A stretch of 64,000 nucleotides of DNA, taken from positions 30,297,001-30,361,000 of the forward strand of contig JAJNNQ010000024.1 in assembly GCA_027886175.1 (NCBI GenBank). The letters are read 5' to 3'. This document shows, piece after piece, positions 6,629-44,600 of this stretch. The notes under the pieces are model-generated. The model made no database searches. It worked only from the letters and a program-made list of their open reading frames with translations, and had not been told where the DNA came from. Source of the DNA: Phylloscopus collybita. Lineage: Eukaryota > Chordata > Aves > Passeriformes > Phylloscopidae. The stretch's first letter is position 1. Each line of letters starts with the position of its first letter. Made by a program: the position numbers and the translations under genes.

Positions 6629-7768
6629 TTAAATCTCCGAGTCCTCGATAGGGCCATTCAGAAATACTGCAGTGGGAAGTGACGGAGAGGACTCATTGGG
6701 ACGGATGAAGTTTGCAGATGGGAACAGTTTTACTTTGGACGCAGCATGGTCTCGGACTGACTTACTCTCCACGATCTGATGCTTAAGTGTTCCCATCTCT
6801 GAGTCCCAGGCTTGTCCCCGCCGCAGTTTCTTGAAGGTGTTACGGAAGCCCTCAGTGCTAAAGTAGTAGATCAAGGGGTCCAGTGTGCAGTTCATGCTGG
6901 CCAACATCATCGTTATAATTAACGCTTGGCGCACGGACGCCCGGGTTTCTTCCTCAACCTTCATCACCCGGGCCTTTATCATCCCGTAAACGGCCAGGGT
7001 AGTGTTGTAGGGCACGAAGCAGATGATGAAGATGACCAGATTGACCAAGAGGAGACGGACAGTCTTCCGCTGTCGCAGGGTCTTCGTCTGGCTGGGCTGG
7101 CAGAGCTCCTGAAAGATCCGAATGGAGCAGTACATCACAGAGCTGAGAGGCAGGAGAAACCCCAAGATTTCAGCCAGGATTACCAGGGGGAAGAGGTTAT
7201 TTTGCCACATGTTGTCGCTAAAGCTTTCAAAGCACAGATAAATGGTCTGGTTTTTTATTTTACAGTGGTTTTGCTTGTGGACTATGGCTGTGGGGATGGA
7301 GCCCATGAAGATGACAACCCAGACGATGAAGCAGAGGAGCTTGGCCACCTTGGGGCGCCGCAGATGCCGCCAGCGAAGCGGGTGAACAATGGCAACGTAG
7401 CGATCCAGGTTGATGCACATGAGGAAGAGGCAGCTACCGTACATGTTGATCTGGAAGACTGAGCCAGAGACCTGGCACAGGATGCTACCAAAGGGCCAGT
7501 GGTGATTGGAATAGTAGTAGAGCCGCAGGGGCAGGGAAAGTGTGAAGCTGAGGTCGCTTATGGCCAGGTTCAACATGTAGATCATCACTACAGACTTCAG
7601 GCGCAGGTATCGGATGAATATCCACAGGGCTACCACATTGAGTATCAGACCTGTGATGAGTATCAGAGCGTAGCCAGGCATGAGGAGGTGGTGGTTGAAG
7701 GTGTAATCCTTGCATGTCTGAGATGTATTGGATATATTGGATGTATTGGATGCTGACATGCCCAGCAT
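6629..7768 (-). CDS. LPAR5: Lysophosphatidic acid receptor 5 (class A GPCR)
   Basis: Receptor at the plasma membrane for lysophosphatidic acid, coupling in mammals to G12/13 and Gq. The 379-residue frame is close to the mammalian length and uninterrupted, as for other single-coding-exon LPARs of the P2Y-like group. Visible hallmarks: N-terminal sequons (NTS, NIS, NTS at about residues 8-16), seven hydrophobic segments, the extracellular disulfide pair C98 and C179, the DRY motif at 122-124 followed by VAIVHPL, LRRPKVAKLLC at the end of intracellular loop 2, FVPYNTTLAVYG in TM6, and a DPLIYYF variant of NPxxY at 297-303. The tail ends DSEI, a class I PDZ-type ending. The family-specific LRRP and FVPYN blocks favour LPAR5 over GPR35 or P2RY relatives. 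A second ATG lies three codons inside; I kept the first because both lie in one context. Neighbours fit CHD4-LPAR5-ACRBP synteny. Confidence 0.95.
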   Translation of the reverse strand: MLGMSASNTSNISNTSQTCKDYTFNHHLLMPGYALILITGLILNVVALWIFIRYLRLKSVVMIYMLNLAISDLSFTLSLPLRLYYYSNHHWPFGSILCQVSGSVFQINMYGSCLFLMCINLDRYVAIVHPLRWRHLRRPKVAKLLCFIVWVVIFMGSIPTAIVHKQNHCKIKNQTIYLCFESFSDNMWQNNLFPLVILAEILGFLLPLSSVMYCSIRIFQELCQPSQTKTLRQRKTVRLLLVNLVIFIICFVPYNTTLAVYGMIKARVMKVEEETRASVRQALIITMMLASMNCTLDPLIYYFSTEGFRNTFKKLRRGQAWDSEMGTLKHQIVESKSVRDHAASKVKLFPSANFIRPNESSPSLPTAVFLNGPIEDSEI

Positions 7769-7813
7769 GGATTGAGGGATGGTCTCGCTGAGATGGCTGA
7801 GCCGGTTGATGGG

Positions 7814-17021: not shown

Positions 17022-17086
17022 ATGGAGCTGGTGTGGCTGTACATGATGCTGATCCATGTGCAGCATGTCGCTGCCGTGACCTGGCT
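17022..17086 (+). pseudogene. WNT4-type relict exon 1 (signal peptide)
   Basis: ATG followed by a hydrophobic leader (MELVWLYMMLIHVQ...) and ending in the codons for Thr-Trp plus CT, then donor gtaagtatg. WNT4 exon 1 likewise ends with Trp-Leu in phase 2. The block is open and looks intact. Confidence 0.75.
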
Positions 17087-17421
17087 GTAAGTATGTTTTG
17101 TGCTTGTACTGTCTGGGTTGGAAAGCCACCTAGGGAGGTGCTGTCTCCAAAGAAAACAGAGTGAGAACAGGGTGGAAAAAGGAATCTGGGCAACCAAAAA
17201 ACAGAAGGGGCATGTCTGGGAACATGGAGGGAGAGGGATGGTAAGGCTGAAGAGATGCAGACCAGAATGGGCAGCAAGAATGTCCAGTTCACAGACAACA
17301 TGGCCACAGCCCCTTCCCTGCCCCATTTCTGCTCTGAGATACGGCTAGAGAGGGTTAGTCCTGCAGAGGGAAGGCCCTGGCTCCAGGTCATCTGCAACTG
17401 AACCTCTCCCCTGCCCCACAG

Positions 17422-17621
17422 GCCAAGCAGGCAGTCCTCTGGCACCCCCAGGGGCTGTGATGGCCTGACAGGGCTGGTGGAAGAGCAGGTGGCAGCCATG
17501 GAGGCAGTGAGGTGAGGTGTGGAGCTGGCTGTCCTCAAGTGCCAGCACCAGCTCCACTCTCGCTGCTGGAACTGCTCCACCCTGCAGGGGCTGCAGGTCT
17601 TCAGCAGGGCCACCATCCAAG
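17422..17621 (+). pseudogene. WNT4-type relict exon 2 with in-frame TGA
   Basis: Acceptor cctctcccctgccccacag and donor CAAG/gtcagt frame the block. The phase continues from exon 1. Residues GLTGLVEEQV, then VR-stop-GVELAVLKC, then QHQLHSRCWNCSTLQGLQVF line up with WNT4 GLIQRQV...VRRGAQLAIEEC...RRWNCSTL. The second Arg of VRRG is replaced by TGA, consistent with CGA to TGA. About seven residues before it, including one Cys, are missing. Confidence 0.85.
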
Positions 17622-18088
17622 GTCAGTGGTGGCATGGGCAGGCTTGGCATGGTGTCCCTCCAATATGTCCCCCTGACGTGTCAGCCTTTCCTGGGCTAGT
17701 GTGCAAGGGTCACACTGGACCCATCCCCAGAGTGGCCGGTGCCCTCTTCCACATGCTACCATGTCTGTCAGCACAGAGCAAACCAAACCAAATGCCCTCA
17801 CATATATTAGCATTCAGGAGAGGCTTTTCCCATTTAGCCAGGTTTGGCATTTTGATCCCATTGGCCCACCCTGGCTCTGCAGACTGGTAAATTTTCTCTC
17901 TGAGCCTGCCACCCACCCTGCCACAGAGCCATGTCACTTACTGACCCCCAGCCTGGGGAACAGCTGCACTGGTGAACATCCTGACATACATTTCTCCCGA
18001 GCAGTCTCCATCTGAAGGCATCCTTCCTGCATGCAGTGACAGCCTCTTTTCCCACACTGTGTCCCATAAGTGCCTTTGCCCTCTGCAG

Positions 18089-18365
18089 ACTGGTGCCCTT
18101 TCTTGTCTCGCTGCTGTGTCTGCTTTCATCCACACCATCTCCTCTGCCAGCATTGCCTTTGCTGTGACCCAGCATTGTCTTTGCTGTGACCCAGCATTGT
18201 CTTTGCTGTGACCCAGCACTGCCTTTGCTGTGACCCAGCATTGTCTTTGCTGTGACCCAGCATTGTCTTTGCTGTGACCCAGCACTGCCTTTGCTGTGAC
18301 CCATGCCTGTAGCCGCAGGGAGCTGCACAAGTGTGGCTGCAAGATCCGAGGAGTCAGCCCTGAAG
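18089..18365 (+). pseudogene. WNT4-type relict exon 3 interrupted by minisatellite
   Basis: After acceptor ctctgcag the conserved frame reads SAFIHTISSASIAFAVT. It is then expanded into seven 22-bp copies and resumes as HACSRRELHKCGCKIRGVSPE before a gtgaag donor. The opening bases do not continue exon 2 in phase, and the expansion brings TGA into frame by its third unit. Confidence 0.85.
18151..18304 (+). repeat. 22-bp minisatellite, seven copies, inside WNT exon 3
   Basis: Unit cattgYctttgctgtgacccag repeated seven times (154 bp). Variants run T-T-C in two successive triplets (units 2-4 and 5-7 are identical sets), so a 66-bp higher-order block was also duplicated. The unit derives from the exon itself (Ile-Ala-Phe-Ala-Val-Thr codons). 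Six extra copies add 132 nt, a multiple of three, yet the inner units run through all three frames and expose TGA. Confidence 0.95.
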
Positions 18366-18517
18366 GTGAAGGAAGAAGCGGGTGGAGGGAGCAAGTGGCA
18401 GAGGGGAAGGTCCATGGGGGAGACAGACCAGAAAAGGAGACACCTTCACTCTCCACAGGTCTTTGGAAGATCCTCTCAGGGCTTCTCTTTCCTTGTCTCA
18501 AGACTTTCCCTCTGCAG

Positions 18518-18612
18518 GTTTTCAGGCCTTTGTGGACAGCCCTGAGAGGAGCCGTGGTGTCTCCTCCAGTCGAGCACTGATGAACCTGCGCAGCAATGAG
18601 GCTGGGAGGAAG
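18518..18612 (+). pseudogene. WNT4-type relict exon 4, core deleted
   Basis: Acceptor ctttccctctgcag; phase continues from exon 3 to give G-FQ, then directly AFVDSPERSRGVSSSRALMNL and RSNEAGRK before donor gtgagg. WNT4 has about 16 residues including the invariant WSGCSDN between FQ and the FVD block. They are absent here and not found in the flanking intron. Confidence 0.85.
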
Positions 18613-19266
18613 GTGAGGGCAGGACCTAGGGCTGGGAGCAAGCCTGGCTGCAGGGGCTTCTCCCTGGCTCGGCAGAGCTCAGTCCAGCCCCCACACCCCA
18701 ACAGGCACTCCAGGGCAGCCAGGTGCTCCTGGAGGAGTCTGCATCCTGCTGCCTTTCCTAGCACAGCACTGTGCTGATTACCCTGAGCTGGTTCCTGCCT
18801 GTGTGGAGGGGCATCCCAGCCTCCCCTACACACTTCTGTGCAGTCTCCTTTGCCCTGCAGACCCCACCTATGATTTAGGAAACAATTCACTCTGTTCTGC
18901 TCTGAAGGGCTTCCTTGCCCCCCAGCCCCTCTTCGATGAAGACATCTGCAGGGGCCGCAGTCAGACCTGCTCCCTTGAACATCCTCCACCTCTGGCCAGA
19001 TCTGTTCCCCTCCCCACAGCCCCGCAGGTCAGATCAGCTCCCCATCCCTCTCGCTGCCTCAGGGATTTATCTTACAGACCCAAACCATCATGTTTCCCAC
19101 AGAGTGGATCTTCTGTTCATATTGGCCTGGCTTAAAAAGACACTTCTGCCCCTTCCCTTCCCTTCCTCTCCAGCCCCATGGGCGGAGCGCTGGGGGAGCA
19201 GCAGCACATGGGAGGTGTTGGGAAGGGTGTCCGTGCTCAGGCTGGCAGCCTCCTGCTGCCCGGCAG

Positions 19267-19680
19267 GCTCTCTGGCCCACATGGGGGTGGAGGGCAAGTG
19301 TCGGGCTCCTGCTGGAAGGTCCCGCCTCCCTTCCGCCGGGTGGGCGACGTCCTCAGGGAATCGTCTGAGGGGGTCACAGAGGTTTACCCGAAGCGGGTCG
19401 CTTCCCGCAAGCTCCTGGTGCCCAAGAGCTCTCACTTCAAGCCCCACACGGCTCACGACCCGGTCTACCTGCAGGCCAGCCCGGATTTGTGCCCCCGGGG
19501 CCCTGGGCACGGGCGGTGCCCCCGGGCCTCGCTGGCCGCGGAGGGCTGCGAGCCGCGCTGCTGGGCCGGGGCTCCCACACGGCCCGGCCGAGGTGGTGGG
19601 GCCCCGAGTGCCGCCGGGGCTGCCCCATCGACTGCAGCAGTGCCGGCACTTCTGTGGAGGTGCCGCTGAGGGGACTGCAG
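19267..19680 (+). pseudogene. WNT4-type relict exon 5, frameshifted
   Basis: After acceptor ctgctgcccggcag the block reads AL-AHMGVEGKC with one base missing, then VSGSC in another frame. It lacks the residues equivalent to HG and EVKTC. It then runs open through CWKVPPPFRRVGD, GVTEV, LLVPKSSHFKPHT, VYLQASPDLC and GCEPRC. After that, GRGSHTA appears in a shifted frame and the terminal Cys-rich region is unrecognisable. The end is approximate. Confidence 0.82.
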
Positions 19681-20059: not shown

Positions 20060-20427
20060 AATGTTTCCAAGAGGAGTTCCAGCAGCTGCCACAGTGAGGC
20101 TCCCCTCATTCAGTCTGATCTCAGTGCCAGGGAACATTATGGAACAAATCATCCCAAGTGCAATCACACAGCACAATCAGGGAATCTGCCCTCTCCAGGA
20201 TGGGTTCATAGAAGGCAGGTCCTGCTTGACCAACCTGGTCTCCAGGTAACCTGCCTAGGGATGAGGGAAAGGCTGTGCATGTTGTCTGCCTGGACTTCAG
20301 TAAAGCCCTTGGCATCCCTCCCCACGGCATTCTCCTGGAGAAGCTGGCAGCCCATGGCCTGAGCAGGGCATTCTCTGCTGGGTTAAATTCCAGCTGTGTG
20401 ACCGGGCCTGGAGAGTGGTGCTGGCGG
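20060..20427 (+). repeat. CR1 LINE, reverse-transcriptase region (5' part)
   Basis: Sense CR1 ORF2 remnant: tcatcccaagtgcaatcacac, ggtcctgcttgaccaacctggt, gtgcatgttgtctgcctggacttcagtaaagcccttgg. This is the RT segment usually translated as VYLDFSKAFD. Frameshifts and stops are present. It continues after the minisatellite at 20740. Confidence 0.88.
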
Positions 20428-20739
20428 AGTTACACCCACCTGGTCACCAGGGGGGAGTTACATTCACCTGGTCACCAGTGGGGGAGTTACACCCACCTGG
20501 TCACCGGGGGAGGAGTTACATCCACCTGGGCACCAGGGGGTGAGTTACATCCTCCTGGTCACCAAGGGGGAGTTACATCCACCTGGTCACCGGGGGAGGA
20601 GTTACACCCACCTGGTCACCAGTGGGGGAGTTACATCCACTTGGTCACCAGGGGGGAGTTACATCCACCTGGTCACCAAGGGGGGAGTTACATCCACCTG
20701 GTCACCAGTGGAGGAGTTACATCCACCTGGTCACCACTG
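20428..20739 (+). repeat. 28-30-bp minisatellite inside CR1, about 11 copies
   Basis: Unit (g)gagttacatccacctggtcaccagggg repeated about eleven times with small length changes in the G run. The unit matches the point in CR1 where one such stretch precedes ggggctccccagggctcagtcctg, so the array is an expansion of LINE coding sequence rather than a separate insertion. Confidence 0.95.
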
Positions 20740-21642
20740 GGGCTCCCCAGGGCTCAGTCCTGTTTCAGAACCTTATCATTGATCTGGGTGAGGGGATCGA
20801 GGGCACCCTCAGGCAGTTTGCAGGAGACACCAAGCTGGCTGGGAGCGTTGGTCTGCTGGAGGGCAGGAGGGCTCTGCAGAGGGATCTGGACAGGCTGGAT
20901 CCATGGGCTGAGGTCAGTTGTGTGAGGTTCAGTAAGGCCAAGTGCCTTTCATTCAGAACAACCCCAGGCAGCACCACAGGCTGGGCCAGAGTGGCTGGGA
21001 AGCTGCCCAGGGGAAAGGAGCTGGGGGTGCTGGTGACAGCAGCTGAGCATGAGCCAGCTGAGCCCAGGTGGCCGAGAAGGCCAATGGCAGCTGGCCTGTG
21101 TCAGGAATAGTGTGGCCAGCGGGACCAGGGCAGAGATTGTCCTCTTGTATTCTGCACTGGTGGGGCCACAACCTCGAGTGCTGTGTCCAGTTCTGGGCCC
21201 TCATTGCAAGAAAGACACCGAGGGGCTGGAGTGTGTCCAGAGAAGAGCAACAAAGCCTGTGAAGGCTCTGGGGTGGCTAAAGGAGCTGGGGTTGTTTAGC
21301 CTGGAGAAAAGGAGGCTCAGGGGAGCCCTGATGATCACTGTCTACAACTCCCTGAAAGGAGGCTGCAGCCAGGTGGGAGTTGGTCTCTTCTCCCAGGCAA
21401 CCAGCGACAGAACAAGAGGAAATGGCTCCAAGTTGTGCCAGGGGAGGTTCAGGCGGGTATTAGGAAAAAAATTCTTCACTGAAAGTGTGGTCAGGCATTG
21501 GAAGAGGCTCCCCAGGGAAGTGGTGGAATCACCACCCCTAGAAGTGTTCAAAAAACAAGCAGACGTGGCACTTTGTGGTACGGTTTAGGGGGCGTGGTGG
21601 TATTTGGTCAAAGGCCTTGACTGTCTTGAAGGTCTTTACAAA
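20740..21642 (+). repeat. CR1 LINE, 3' part ending at ACRBP
   Basis: Continuation of the same element: ggggctccccagggctcagtcctgtt, cagtttgcaggagacaccaagctggctggg (FADDTKL block), aggagctgggggtgctggt, gtttagcctggagaaaaggaggctcaggggag, attcttcactgaaagtgtggtcaggcattgg. The last recognisable stretch, caaaggccttgactgtcttgaaggtctttacaaacttta, reaches the ACRBP stop codon. Dead copy. Confidence 0.88.
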
Positions 21643-30700: not shown

Positions 30701-32963
30701 CCCTGAGTCTGGTGATGTGGGGTGGGACTCATCCCTCTAACACAGCTGCAGAAACCAGCAAGAAATAGTTGCCCTCATGCTGCAGTCCAAATAAGCACAG
30801 TTGGCTGATCATTCAGCTCATTGACGTTCATATCTAAATATAAAGACATATTTTTTTTATGAGAAAATTGCTCCTATTTTTTTTTCCTCTGAAGAAAAAT
30901 ACAACAGAAGTAGTCCCAAGTTTTTCAGCTGCACAGATATAATTATACCACTTAAATTCTCTGATGCAGGGGTGCAGGGAAAATATGACTGCAGAGATCT
31001 GAAGGGTGCTGTTGCTATGGTGCTTTCTGAACTGGGATGTTTCTTGGCTCCTGAAATGTTAAACATTTAAAAAGGCAGCTTATCATCTCAAGTTTTCTTA
31101 AAGAACTACGAGAGCCCATGAGCCAAGATTCTGCATTAACCCTCAGGTGAAGCTGGAAGGAGCTGGTAAGAGATGAGGAGCTACACCGAGCTTGAGAAAG
31201 CTGTGGCCAGTTCTTCCTCCAGCCACCCCACCAACAGAGATGTGGAGAAGGGAAGGGCCACTGAAGTGGCTGTGGCTTCCAGCCCCATGACCTGTCAGGA
31301 GAGGCTGGGACAGCTGTCCTTGCACAGCTGGGTGAAGAGGAGGAGTCCCAGCAGCCCACCAGGGTTTGAAAGAAACCTACCAGAGGACAAACCCTTTTTG
31401 GTGGTGGCAGACAGCACACGGAGCGGGGGGAAAACCATGCAAATTCCTGCTTAGGAGGTTAGGGCCGGCCTTTGGGAAAAGGTGGGGTTTTTCTCCAGGA
31501 AAGTGGTGCAGCACTGAAAGGGATGCTCAGGGAGGCCACAAAAGGTGGTGCACTCTACTTCTGCCAGTGTCTGCTCCAAGCTGCTCCTTGGGCTATAGGG
31601 CCCATCCCATCCCATCCCATCCCATCCCATCCCATCCCATCCCATCCCATCCCATCCCATCCCATCCCATCCCATCCCATCCCATCCCATCCCATCCCAT
31701 CCCATCCCATCCCCATTCCCACAGTCCTGTGCCATTTTGGGGCAGAGAAACAGCCACCCCACTCCGGCTGGGTCCAGGTGCTCCTCTCAGCCTGGCGGTG
31801 GGCGATGCCCTTACCTTCGGGGATTTCTCCGTGGTTCTCGTCCTGGTCCAGCTGCAGGACGCTGGGGTTGAGGCAGCCGTAGGCCTGGCGCAGCAGGCAG
31901 AACATGTTGGCCTGCCAGGGCGGGTGCAGCCGGGCAAAGAAGTGCTGGTACTCCCGGTCCGACAGCGGGCTGCCCGGCACGGACGGCACCGGCGGAGCCA
32001 CCGCGGCCGCCGGCAGGGTCAGCACACCTACGGGACAAAGAGCTGGGCTGGGCTGGGCTGGGCTGGGCTGGGCTGGGCCGGGCCGGGCTGGGCTGGGCTG
32101 GGCTGGGCTGGGCTGGGCCGGGCTGGGCCCGGCAGGGACAGGCGGCGGGGAAGGAAGGAGCGGCCGGCAGGTTGGCCTGCTCCCCTCTGCTGGTGCTGGG
32201 ACAAGCACTTCGGATGCTGGCCTGAAGTCTCCTTCCATCCCCCCTGCCTGCAGGGAGCTGGGGTTAACCAGGGAAAAGGGGAGGGGAAAGAATGCAAAGA
32301 AGGGGAAAAAAAAACCCCAAAAAAGTTTAAAAGTCAGATTTTATTGTGAGCTTGGTCTGGATTGGGTGGAAATGTTTTGATTTTGGTTTTGTTGTTTCCT
32401 TTTTATATGTGTGTGTGTGTGTGTGTTTGTGGGGGGAGGTTGAGGTTTTTTGTGGTGGTTTTTTTTTTTGTTTGTTTTGTTTTGTTTTGTTTTGTTTTGG
32501 GTTTTTTGGGTTGTTTTTTTTTTTTTTTTGGGGGGGTTTTGGTTTTGGTTTTGGTTTTTTTGGAGGGTTTGGGGGCGGAGCAGTATTGATGTGGGTTTTG
32601 TTTGTTTTTCCCCTCAAAAGCTTCAGCCTCCAGAGGCACCCACAATGGTGGTGACTCCCCTGCACCATGCTGTGGGCACACCCGTGTCCGGGGGGACATC
32701 CCTGCATCTCCTCCCTCCCCTCTTTGCCTCTCCTGCTGCCTCTGCACCATCCTCTGTCCCCCAGCCTGGGTCCCCTGCAAGAGCCTGCAGCTGCCCCGGG
32801 GTGAGCAGAGCTGAGGGCTGGCACGGCCTGTGGGCCGAGCGGGTGCTCCTGTGAATGAAGTCCAGCAGGGGCTCCAGCCCCTGGCTGTGAGGTGGCCCTG
32901 CGGGGGCTGTCACTTACTCAGTAGCCAGAGGAGCCACGATGTGTCTGCCACAGGCTTCAGCAT
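21645..32963 (-). CDS. ACRBP: Acrosin-binding protein (proacrosin-binding protein sp32), 10 coding exons
   Basis: ACRBP is a secretory-pathway protein of the sperm acrosome that binds proacrosin and controls its packing and activation. Coding exons: 32918-32963, 31815-32027, 29025-29119, 28811-28913, 28313-28754, 23046-23178, 22691-22870, 22417-22584, 22255-22341, 21645-21773. All phases join cleanly to 532 codons (531 residues; mammalian protein about 540). A signal peptide (residues 1 to about 26, ending AVA) is followed by [31 protein letters not shown] and KRVPC in the N-terminal domain. A divergent Ser/Pro/Thr-rich middle follows (about 153-290). The C-terminal Cys-rich part has [57 protein letters not shown] and VKCNQNKT. 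The Glu/Gln-rich repeats of the mammalian middle are absent. The exon 5 acceptor is the least certain boundary. Confidence 0.93.
22255..22341 (-). CDS. ACRBP: ACRBP exon 9
   Basis: 29 codons, phases 0/0, bounded by ctcaccag and gtgaga. Encodes [20 protein letters not shown] and on to YNER. The Cys spacing matches a Kazal-like half domain in mammalian ACRBP. Confidence 0.95.
22417..22584 (-). CDS. ACRBP: ACRBP exon 8
   Basis: 56 codons, phases 0/0, bounded by ccctttgcag and gtgggt. Includes [19 protein letters not shown] and FEDGDGSGK, matching mammalian LYGGLHMDFWCARLATKGC and FQDGD. Confidence 0.95.
22691..22870 (-). CDS. ACRBP: ACRBP exon 7
   Basis: 60 codons, phases 0/0, bounded by ggatccag and gtaccg. 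Holds [20 protein letters not shown] and KREQCQN, the best conserved Cys cluster of the family. Confidence 0.95.
23046..23178 (-). CDS. ACRBP: ACRBP exon 6
   Basis: Acceptor tttctctgtcag (not the nearer gccctgcag) is chosen because only it restores the frame from exon 5 and gives [17 protein letters not shown], matching mammalian GSLLQLPHTEALLVLCY. Ends GFGDT before donor gtaaag. Confidence 0.94.
23179..28312. other. ACRBP: ACRBP intron 5 (5.1 kb)
   Basis: Largest ACRBP intron. Contains a sense-on-plus CR1 fragment (25490-25825) and otherwise unremarkable sequence. Several open frames of 90-120 codons show no domain. Confidence 0.75.
25490..25825 (+). repeat. CR1 LINE 3' fragment in ACRBP intron 5
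   Basis: Sense CR1 on plus: ggtgccagactcttttcagtggtgcc, ttctacctcaacatcaggaagaac, gaacactggaataggctgcccagagaggtcatggagtctcc, ttggacagaatgatctccaaccctaacagttctgggattctg. Opposite orientation to ACRBP. Confidence 0.92.
28313..28754 (-). CDS. ACRBP: ACRBP exon 5 (variable middle region)
   Basis: 442 nt, in phase 1, out phase 2 (donor GGCAG/gtgagg). Contains [10 protein letters not shown] and [17 protein letters not shown]...DSSW, which match mammalian LSNNVEELLQ and NIQELIRSAQEID...NSYW. Between them lies Pro/Thr/Ser-rich sequence instead of the mammalian Glu/Gln repeats. The acceptor at ctgctgtag keeps the frame. A stronger-looking ccactcag inside the exon would break it. Confidence 0.82.
28811..28913 (-). 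CDS. ACRBP: ACRBP exon 4
   Basis: Acceptor ctcctccacgcag, donor ACAAG/gtatgg. Encodes [20 protein letters not shown], joining exon 3 to give FVKRVPC, the counterpart of mammalian YAKRVLC. Confidence 0.9.
29025..29119 (-). CDS. ACRBP: ACRBP exon 3
   Basis: Bounded by tatctctag and gtaagg. Encodes [20 protein letters not shown] and [11 protein letters not shown], with Cys positions as in mammalian AVCS...FCQFTHYRC. Confidence 0.95.
29485..29655 (-). repeat. CR1 LINE 3' end in ACRBP intron 2
   Basis: The plus strand shows the reverse complement of the CR1 terminus: agagaatcagagaatggtttggtttggaagggtctttatagatcatcaagttcc ... accaggttgttcaaagacccatccagcctgg. Same orientation as ACRBP. Confidence 0.9.
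31601..31710. repeat. (CCCAT)n pentanucleotide microsatellite, 22 perfect copies
   Basis: 110 bp of exact cccat repeats on plus. On the transcribed ACRBP pre-mRNA this is (GGGAU)n, G-quadruplex-competent. It lies about 100 bp downstream of ACRBP exon 2. Confidence 0.98.
31815..32027 (-). CDS. ACRBP: ACRBP exon 2
   Basis: 213 nt, phases 1/1, donor GAAG/gtaagg. Encodes the end of the signal peptide and [38 protein letters not shown], matching mammalian SPLSPTEYERFFALLTPTW and LVQLDQYENHG. The acceptor cccgtag follows directly on a GGGCT-type repeat, so several AGs precede it. Confidence 0.94.
32041..32132. repeat. (GGGCT)n pentanucleotide microsatellite
   Basis: About 18 copies of gggct with a few gggcc variants on plus, ending 14 bp from the acceptor edge of ACRBP exon 2. 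The G-rich strand is the template strand of ACRBP. Confidence 0.97.
32404..32576. repeat. G/T-only simple-repeat tract in ACRBP intron 1
   Basis: About 170 bp containing (TG)n, (TTTTG)n, T15-16, G7 and (GGTTTT)n with almost no A or C on the plus strand. Strand-asymmetric low-complexity DNA, upstream of the two pentanucleotide arrays in the ACRBP direction. Confidence 0.95.
32918..32963 (-). CDS. ACRBP: ACRBP exon 1 (start codon, signal peptide)
   Basis: ATG at 32963-32961, then [14 protein letters not shown] and a split Ser codon, donor CTGA/gtaagtg. Chosen because it joins exon 2 in phase to form a single hydrophobic leader ending AAAVA. The ATG sits in a GC-rich stretch without a strong Kozak purine check. 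Confidence 0.85.
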
Positions 32964-41609: not shown

Positions 41610-44600
41610 CTGTTAGAAAGGGAAGTGCAAAGCCAACATGTAGGGCATGACATGAGCCTCAAGTGCATGGTCCCAAAAGACCTTTTCCAAGGTCCCTGAC
41701 AAAGCCTTAATTCAAGTTTTCCTTTTAATGGTATCTTCTAAGTGTGTATATATAATACTTTTCCCCCTGCCACCTAGGACCTCCCCTTTCCAAAGGCCAG
41801 TGGGCCCCCCAGGTTGCTTCACTCACCATTTTCCCCTTGGTTTTGTTGTCAGACCCACACAGGCAAAGTGAAACCATTCAATGGAACACTGTTGGGATGA
41901 AGAGCAGCCAGTTAAAGAGAGGTTTCCTTTTGAAGTTGTTGCTTTTGGGCTACCAGAGTTTCCCAGCATCTAATCACAAACTCCTAAATCCCTAGCAGTG
42001 ATCAAGGACTGAATACTCACACCCAACCTACACACTGTCAGCAAGGAGAACTCCCCTTCTCCCTTGCTAAGTTTAGGGACAGGAAAACCTTTCAAGGAAA
42101 ACCCTGAAGAAAGAGGCCCTTCAGAGGTCATTGCCAGCCACACCTCTGCCCATCCCACCTACCTGAGTCCTTGTCACTGCTTGCTGTCTCAGGCCCCACC
42201 CAAGGGGGACCAGACTTTCCATGCAAGACTCCTCCCCACTCTGTTCCCCCCCTTTCCACCAGGTGCAGGCTCTTACATCTGGGTTGTCACAGCCAATCAT
42301 CTCCCCATAGGAGACCTGGTGGCAGAGGCAGTAGGTGGGCTCATTGGGGTCCACGGGCATATCCAGTACATCCGAGGGGTGCACGTTTCCAAAGGTGACT
42401 GAAGGCATCCCATACTCTGTGCTACTGCAGGACAAGAATACAGAAAGTCAGCAAAGTAACTGGCTTTGAACTGGCTTTGTGTGTCCCAAGACAGTGCCCT
42501 TGTTTGCCAGAGACAGATATTTCTCTTGTTTACGTACATACAACCAAAGGGACCTGCTTTCCCCTTCAACCCACACCCCCCTGAAAGAATAAAAAAGTTT
42601 CTCTCCTCTTGCTCCCCAAGAAGGGACAGAGGACACACAGTTCCAGTCTGGGGATCTCAGGGAAGCCTGGCTAGGCCTGCCTTGGTCTGATTTCTAGTGC
42701 TGCTTCTCGTTCCCTCAAGTCCCTTAAACACTTACGTGCGGACGAGCTTCAATTTCTTTTGGGCAGTTTTTGGTGCTTCCTCATCAGAGTTCTTCCCTTT
42801 AGAGCGAGCACGGGCAGCTTTTTTCTCTTTCTGGGCTCGGCCCTCTGGTAAGAAGAGGAAAAGGTGTTGCATCTGTCACCCCAGCAAAGCAGACACCTGA
42901 CAGTGACAACCTCTGCAGCACTAAATACACTCCAGCTTTGGAATGTATATTGGCTTTGGGCCGTGCACCCCATCTCAATTTATCTAGTGGCCTTGAATGT
43001 GCTCACACAAGAGCCCAGGTCACCATCTTTTTACCTGTCCTTCAGACTCCAGCGCAACAGTCTTTGATCTGCACCACTCCAGTGCCTGCCTTCATCCCCA
43101 CCACTTCCATAGTCACTTGGCTGCCTCCTGAATCAATCTGCAGCCCAGTGGTGGTACTCACTCTTCTTGCCCTTGCTGGAAGAACTGTCATAGTCACTCG
43201 ACTCTATCTGCTTCTCCTTCAGGTCTGCTTCAAAGCGAGCGAGGTCGGTGTCCAGCCGCCGGATGTGCTTATCCACCTGCAAAGACAGCAGTGACCGGGG
43301 GTCACCACAGGACAGAGCCCAAAGAGAGGACAAAGAGGGGACAAAGGGGCAGGGGGCTTGCACTAAAGAGCTGAGGAGCAAGAGTGGGCATGGCCTAAAA
43401 ATGAAAGATCGGGGCCTTTCTGAGATGGGCGGCTTTAGTTTGGGCCTTCACACGATAAGCACCAGACACTTCCCTTCATACCATCTCGTAGGTCTGCATA
43501 GCCAGCTGAACCTTGTCGTCCCCAAACTCCTTGCACTTCCCATAGGCATCCTGGATTTGCTTGAGAAGCCCCAGTTTTTCCTCTGAAGACAAAGTCCGTG
43601 CATTGCTGATATATTCCGTGGCCAGCTTATCGATCTCTGACTTGAGGTCTGAAACAAGTGAAGCATTAAATACACAAACACCACAAACACGACAGTGCCC
43701 TCCATGAGGAGAGACTGAATGACTGGAGCAGCTCTAGGCCTCCTCCCCTGCCTGGAGATCCCCATGACAAAGGCAAAGCAAAGCAGAGCTGGTCAAGCTA
43801 CATACTCCTTGTCTTGGCAACAAAAGCATCTCTAATCCTCACCTTCTGTCCTCTGATCCAGATCTCGCATGAGCTGGAAGTTTCTCTGTAATTCAAAGGG
43901 CAGGTTCTCAATACCTGCAGAGAAAGGAGAATACATGGAGAAATCAGATTCCTGTCCACGATGCTAAGGCAGGAACAAAGCTAACCAGTAACAACACACA
44001 CACCCCTCTGGTGCACATCAGCCTGCTTACATTTGTTGCTGGCCCCAAAGGAGACAGACTATAAAAATGTGATGTATTTAATGCAGAAGCATAGTTCTAG
44101 AGTACATACTAGATAGGAGAAAACTGCTGCCATGCAGAAAGGTTCACACCAAGAAAGCAGAAACCCAAAATCTGTAATGAGTGTCAGTCATTATAATGCA
44201 TCTTCATCCAAAAACTCCACTCAGTAATGAAAAAAACCAGCACAACAGCTGGTAAATAAAGCCATTTAGTTATTTCTACCCAAGGATGTAAAAATTGAAG
44301 TTGATCAAATGCTAATTTGCTGAAAAGTGAGTGTGTTTAATGCATTCATTTAACATACTGGGGACAGTAGACACTTTGGGCAGAGCAAAGATCAAGTGTG
44401 AGATGGGATGTGGAACACAGAGCAGTCTTAACCCCTCGTGACTTGTAACTTCTGCACTGTCATCTGAGTGTGGTCTGTCCAACACCTGGAAGGATGCCAC
44501 GCATTGTGAATAATAAACGTTTGTAGGGCTCTGAATGAGCAATGTGAAGTTGATAGTCAATTAATTTTCAATGCACTATGCTACTCGCCCCCCAGGCATC

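Follow-up and report, generated by a model that had tools for sequence, protein, structure and literature searches.

In a stretch of 64,000 nucleotides from Phylloscopus collybita (the window, whose numbering is used throughout), we found what is almost certainly a unitary, unprocessed pseudogene of the vertebrate WNT4B orthologue, which sits where the ancestral gene did, flanked by LPAR5 and ACRBP, and in this oscine songbird is inactivated and drifts free of constraint. This interpretation is built on what was observed at the locus: its homology and exon–intron organisation, its grouping with WNT4B, its neighbouring genes and its lesions. All five of five exons of a WNT gene were traced as collinear remains on the plus strand, from 17022 to ~19672. 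The introns are retained, the reading frame is disrupted and no intact copy was seen among the genome candidates scored (116 of 130), which together are the marks of a unitary pseudogene, and a processed copy was ruled out by the retained introns. A relict with its introns was also what an earlier sequence-only reading of the window had proposed. The object is of an ordinary kind, with clean evidence; it is the gene that is unusual.

The homology was examined with TBLASTN, in which four proteins were searched against the window and the reversed window was used as control. The matches fell into collinear blocks starting at 17022, 17411–17456, 18119–18284, 18523 and 19272–19307, with E-values for Cyanocitta WNT4B of 4e-7, 2e-19, 5e-9, 2e-8 and 5e-31 for exons 1 to 5, respectively. 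Exon 1 matched Cyanocitta at 86% and was also found with Rissa (kittiwake) WNT4B at E 4e-4, and the E-values of exon 2 ranged from 2e-19 to 5e-20. Since no match below E 0.68 was obtained in the reversed window and the best match in the forward window outside the WNT blocks had an E of 0.33, the WNT matches in the window are well beyond chance. The Pfam wnt profile (PF00110; cut-off 20.3 bits) exceeded its gathering score in the ORFs of exon 5 (37.3 bits, 2.9e-9) and exon 2 (21.0 bits), and the ORFs of exons 3 and 4 taken alone scored 11.9 and 13.2 bits, under that cut-off. A protein search with the conceptual relict returned 220 proteins at E ≤ 0.001; among the best 120 of these, the top matches, labelled “Wnt-4-like” or “Wnt-4”, came from birds, turtles and a crocodilian, with a Cyanocitta model marked LOW QUALITY (4.8e-93, 62% identity) and Rissa in the lead. 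Furthermore, a search of the whole assembly (1.25 Gb) recovered four of the relict blocks with E-values from 1e-28 to 6.5e-6.

The exons were read from a frameshift-tolerant alignment of the window to Rissa WNT4B, on which the identities given here are based. Exon 1 (17022–17086) has an ATG, a plausible signal peptide and the donor GTAAGT, and 15 of its 22 residues are identical to Rissa. Exon 2 (17422–17621), with boundaries read as CCCCACAG / GTCAGT, keeps 48 of 71 residues. In exon 3 (~18119–18365; donor GTGAAG), 24 of 27 residues are identical in the 3' half only, and the acceptor is off its homologous position, as the closest AG upstream ends at 18088, leaving a gap of 30 nt to the first codon with homology. 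Exon 4 (18518–18612), bounded by CTCTGCAG / GTGAGG, shares 25 of 30 residues, and exon 5 (19267–~19672), which starts at CCCGGCAG, shares 81 of 117 with three partial codons. Five plus-strand blocks in WNT exon order, with WNT signature strings, a signal peptide, agreeing phases and surviving splice sites, had been described earlier from the sequence. The collinear matches, set against the reversed control, bear out the blocks; every quoted residue string was found in the window, and wherever junctions were compared (exons 2 to 5) the phases equal those of the genome's own WNT4A. Splice sites are canonical for exons 1, 2, 4 and 5, donors and acceptors alike, and exon 3 has a canonical donor and a doubtful acceptor. 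The relict reads Cys in RCWNCSTL where the intact genes have Arg (RRWNCSTL). Exon 5 is very GC-rich (GC 0.73, CpG observed/expected 0.65), and the next highest CpG ratios were those of exon 1 (0.45) and exon 4 (0.38); these base counts used the ends 17080, 17622 and 18367 for exons 1, 2 and 3 as against the read ends 17086, 17621 and 18365.

All exons from the second onwards carry lesions when compared with Rissa WNT4B. Exon 2 has a TGA at 17513–17515 where Rissa has Arg, lacks seven codons (21 nt), and is out of frame at its 5' end, so that AKQAVL and PRGCDGL lie in different frames. Within exon 3, Tandem Repeats Finder detected a plus-strand minisatellite of 7.1 copies of 22 bp (18147–18303), the units of which derive from codons of the SIAFAVT stretch; this expansion amounts to about 132 bp, the frame (ORF 17945–18211) runs into a stop at 18209–18211 inside it, and two further codons are absent. 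Exon 4 has an in-frame deletion of 48 nt (16 codons), which takes out the conserved Cys152. Exon 5 contains partial codons at 19302, 19562 and 19636 together with several deletions, one of them within the CHGVSGSC/EVRTC segment, and the lipidation segment CHGVSGSC is broken by a deletion and a frameshift; the reading frames suggest a further frameshift near the start of this exon. The TGA, the minisatellite and the large deletions go beyond what had been noticed earlier. WNT4A and WNT4B have 24 conserved cysteines in common, of which the relict keeps about 15 (20 positions filled); the frameshift-tolerant alignment would add Cys205. With this cysteine count and the broken CHGVSGSC, the locus reads as the relict of a WNT gene that would encode no functional WNT. 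A second minisatellite, of about 11 copies of 29 bp, occupies 20422–20742, so that with the exon 3 repeat there are two within 3 kb. This stretch resembles, in our estimation, a remnant of a CR1-type retrotransposon, and none of its three ORFs gave a Pfam match above cut-off.

Against a pseudogene it may be said that exon 4 and the 3' half of exon 3 are still 83–89% identical to the kittiwake protein and that most splice signals persist. The locus might be functional even now, as a shortened secreted peptide, a non-coding RNA or an enhancer inside the old gene, and the intact signal peptide and donor of exon 1, the GC- and CpG-richness of exon 5 and the survival of several splice sites would agree with this. 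However, the frame loss and the TGA in exon 2 would truncate any peptide, the growth of the exon 3 minisatellite is consistent with no constraint, the relict has the longest end branch (0.41) among the 12 oscine WNT4B rows of the tree described below, and it retains only 92 of the 127 filled sites that do not vary across a core set of 17 rows. We therefore regard a functional locus as very improbable and favour the inactivated pseudogene, from which transcription of a non-coding remnant could still occur. The earlier suggestion that the loss was recent is not borne out: although splice sites are preserved, the reading frame is badly broken up, and annotated passerine sequences are on average eroded.

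The identity of the gene was determined in a maximum-likelihood tree of 57 rows, comprising the relict, 38 WNT4B candidates, 14 WNT4A and four outgroup WNT of the same genome. The relict grouped with 11 oscine WNT4B rows (100/95), nested in 22 bird WNT4B rows (100/99), in a WNT4B clade standing apart from WNT4A (100/100). This clade contains birds, turtles, a crocodilian, lizards, a newt, a caecilian, a lungfish, the coelacanth, Polypterus, teleost wnt4b and a shark gene. Thus, the earlier assignment to a WNT4-type gene and a candidate WNT4B ohnologue was upheld by the grouping with fish wnt4b, and the relict did not fall outside WNT4. The outgroup rows drew a long-branch warning, and the WNT4A rows were not strictly monophyletic, a shark WNT4A row adjoining WNT4B (92/88) with the relict's placement unaffected. 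Because of the odd placements of Falco with Dromaius (90/81), Strigops with Neopelma (99/77) and Alligator with lizards (98/71), the fine branching within the WNT4B tree is untrustworthy.

The position between LPAR5 and ACRBP, also named in the sequence-only reading, was confirmed by the flanking genes. LPAR5 (6629–7813, minus strand) is an intact single-exon ORF (Pfam 7tm_1, 1e-56), 96% identical to the oscine Cyanoderma cluster (178 members), 93% to Eulacestoma and 85–89% to suboscine clusters, which marks the bird as an oscine songbird; the oscine and suboscine labels, like the bird orders and suborders, are our assignments from the organism names. On the other side, genome profile searches detected an ACRBP-family (PBP_sp32) exon at 31810–32025 (minus strand; PF07222, E 1e-16) and an ING-domain exon at 43467–43655 (minus strand; PF12998, E 1e-8), the match of which is interrupted by one TGA. 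The latter is probably ING4, a name that we take from the human gene order, in which CHD4 presumably lies beyond LPAR5. When 33 flanking and neighbouring ORFs were searched with Pfam, LPAR5 alone was above the curated cut-off. The ACRBP-family exon is flanked by CCCAT repeats (22.6 copies, 100% matches, 31601–31713) and GCTGG repeats (17.4 copies, 95%, 32042–32128), and a second PBP_sp32 exon match, possibly a paralogue, is present in the same genome (C16:183727–183954).

The neighbourhood was compared in other species through the size of each cluster's longest contig, equal sizes being taken as an indirect proxy of synteny in place of maps. WNT4B and LPAR5 were on equal-sized contigs in four of the five other species comparable in both lists, namely Carettochelys (383128740), Lissotriton (1965638399), Elgaria (121985326) and Microcaecilia (56647458); the fifth, Gavia, gave 133328454 for WNT4B against 16723 for LPAR5, which is on a short contig. 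The contig sizes of WNT4A and LPAR5 differed in the three species found (Guaruba, Formicarius and Nannospalax), a weak contrast because some of these assemblies are apparently draft. The relict occupies the place beside LPAR5 that seems to be conserved in the WNT4B group.

A decayed duplicate of the same genome's WNT4A, with no ancient ohnologue involved, would also explain WNT similarity here, and WNT4A proteins do match the relict (best E 1e-23). However, Rissa WNT4B outscored Catharus WNT4A in all blocks, the LPAR5 neighbourhood agrees with WNT4B of other species, and forcing the relict to group with the WNT4A rows in an AU test cost 114 log-likelihood units (p-AU 3e-7). With the tree placing it inside oscine WNT4B, this origin was ruled out and its probability is close to nil. 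WNT4A itself is present on contig C46, with exons 2–5 open and exon 1 not located; it shares the WNT family and the compared phases with the relict as a paralogue, and in exon 5 its identity with Rissa WNT4B is 72%. A search of the genome with Rissa WNT4B, in which 116 of 130 candidates were scored, gave 65 matches; among these the window was the sole WNT4B-like place and no second WNT4B was seen.

It is scarcely credible that the bird has an intact gene and that the lesions are assembly or base-calling errors: NCBI marks the WNT4B models of Cyanocitta, Phaethornis and Ara as LOW QUALITY, which points to frame problems at WNT4B in other assemblies too, but the 48-nt and 21-nt deletions, the minisatellite of ~132 bp and the many changes at invariant sites are atypical of sequencing errors, and the frame of the neighbouring LPAR5 is intact.

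Other birds, turtles, crocodilians, lizards and lobe-finned fish have near full-length WNT4B annotations that carry the names “Wnt-4” or “Wnt-4-like”. Intact WNT4B is already present in the databases under other labels, WNT similarity beside LPAR5 is indicated for other sauropsids, and the term relict holds alongside the full-length gene of several other birds. The sauropsid WNT4B of Rissa (P0003) and Struthio (P0006), both labelled “Wnt-4-like”, of Pelodiscus (P0005) and Alligator (P0007), labelled “Wnt-4”, and of Gekko (P0019), labelled “Wnt-4” with the label unverified, share their exons and tree clade with the relict; these five fill all 24 conserved cysteines, whereas the relict has stops, frameshifts and deletions. 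The teleost wnt4b of Oryzias (P0116) and Salminus (P0112) belong to the same WNT4B clade and, unlike the relict, are intact. The nearest tree relatives of the relict (100/95) are oscine WNT4B fragments or low-quality models from Cyanocitta (P0002), Corvus (P0055), Chloebia (P0051), Vidua (P0047) and Callaeas (P0026), all protein models only, which have also lost invariant sites and are less decayed. Among the 133 WNT4 proteins drawn from the best 120 of 220 and the best 120 of 1450 matches, 77 were nearer to WNT4B and 56 to WNT4A, and all 16 nameable mammalian proteins were nearer to WNT4A. This agrees indirectly with the earlier statement that a WNT gene is missing from this position in mammals.

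The extent of erosion was measured at the sites invariant in the 17-row core, the rows of which (e.g., Rissa, Struthio and the bird's own WNT4A) necessarily score 100%. Annotated WNT4B of passerines (15 entries) kept 79–97% of the filled invariant sites (median 88%, from rounded values) and the 23 other bird entries outside the core kept 83–100% (median 94%); the two ranges overlap, and the entries include many that are incomplete or are poor models with intron read-through. High values among non-passerines were those of Dromaius (100%, and 98% in a second model), Phalacrocorax, Otus and Ciccaba (99%), Falco (98%), and Buteo, Eudromia and Phaethornis (97%); Eudyptes had 96% and Pygoscelis 95%. 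Low values were found in Ara and Pezoporus (83%), Apteryx (84%), Pedionomus (88%), Gavia (89%), Rhynochetos (91%), Columba (92%, with C217S), Strix and Trogon (93%), and Apus, Nestor and Strigops (94%). Outside birds, Chelonoidis kept 98%, Elgaria and Polypterus 97%, Lissotriton 96%, teleosts 93–94%, the shark row 91% and Microcaecilia 88%. Owing to the overlapping ranges and the partial or poor gene models, an apparent erosion of WNT4B across passerines and some other birds is a lead and not proof.

The intact ancestor of the relict would have encoded a secreted, lipid-modified WNT4-type ligand, as its homologues suggest, and no WNT ligand is likely to be made from the relict today. Constraint on WNT4B may have been relaxed in passerines before the relict broke, and, with WNT4A still present in the genome, losing WNT4B was presumably tolerable. 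Vertebrates are seemingly refractory to losing entire Wnt subfamilies, according to the part of PMC6060547 consulted, and WNT4A keeps the WNT4 subfamily alive in this songbird despite the loss of WNT4B. The “elusive” ohnologues lost in mammals and birds, described in the gecko genome paper (PMC5901865), offer a parallel, for WNT4B is likewise a loss-prone early-vertebrate duplicate with a retained sister gene; it differs from them in that the main text of that paper does not contain WNT4B and several birds retain the gene. In teleosts, as far as the portions available of the two papers go, wnt4b lies on a conserved chromosome with rspo1 (PMC7240998) and the medaka gene has sexually dimorphic expression (PMC9490121). 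In the accessible parts of PMC3636272 and PMC7096497, “WNT4” is given without a or b. The coelacanth “WNT4” of PMC3636272 has a CDS of 1068 nt and 355 residues, the same length as Latimeria P0043 of the WNT4B clade, and by this length match only it may be WNT4B rather than WNT4A. A term search of the available text of PMC12954441 gave no mention of WNT, LPAR5, ACRBP or CHD4. None of the titles listed in our searches of open-access literature deals with WNT4B in birds or its loss, and nothing joined Wnt4b with LPAR5 or with elusive genes; subscription journals, mostly outside this scope, may well note it.

These findings suggest that two different genes go under the label “WNT4” in sauropsids, lobe-finned fish and amphibians. 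Whether WNT4B, a ligand retained from early jawed vertebrates onwards, has come under relaxed constraint across passerines, perhaps separately in parrots and pigeons, and inactivated more than once, such that birds are losing a Wnt ligand lineage by lineage with WNT4A untouched, is in our judgement an evenly balanced question. With WNT4B still legible as a fossil here, WNT4A retained and the gene intact in other birds, the locus represents the fossil of a lost developmental signal and no new gene, and intact, eroding and dead copies may form a natural series in which the role of WNT4B, and why songbirds manage without it, could be tested.
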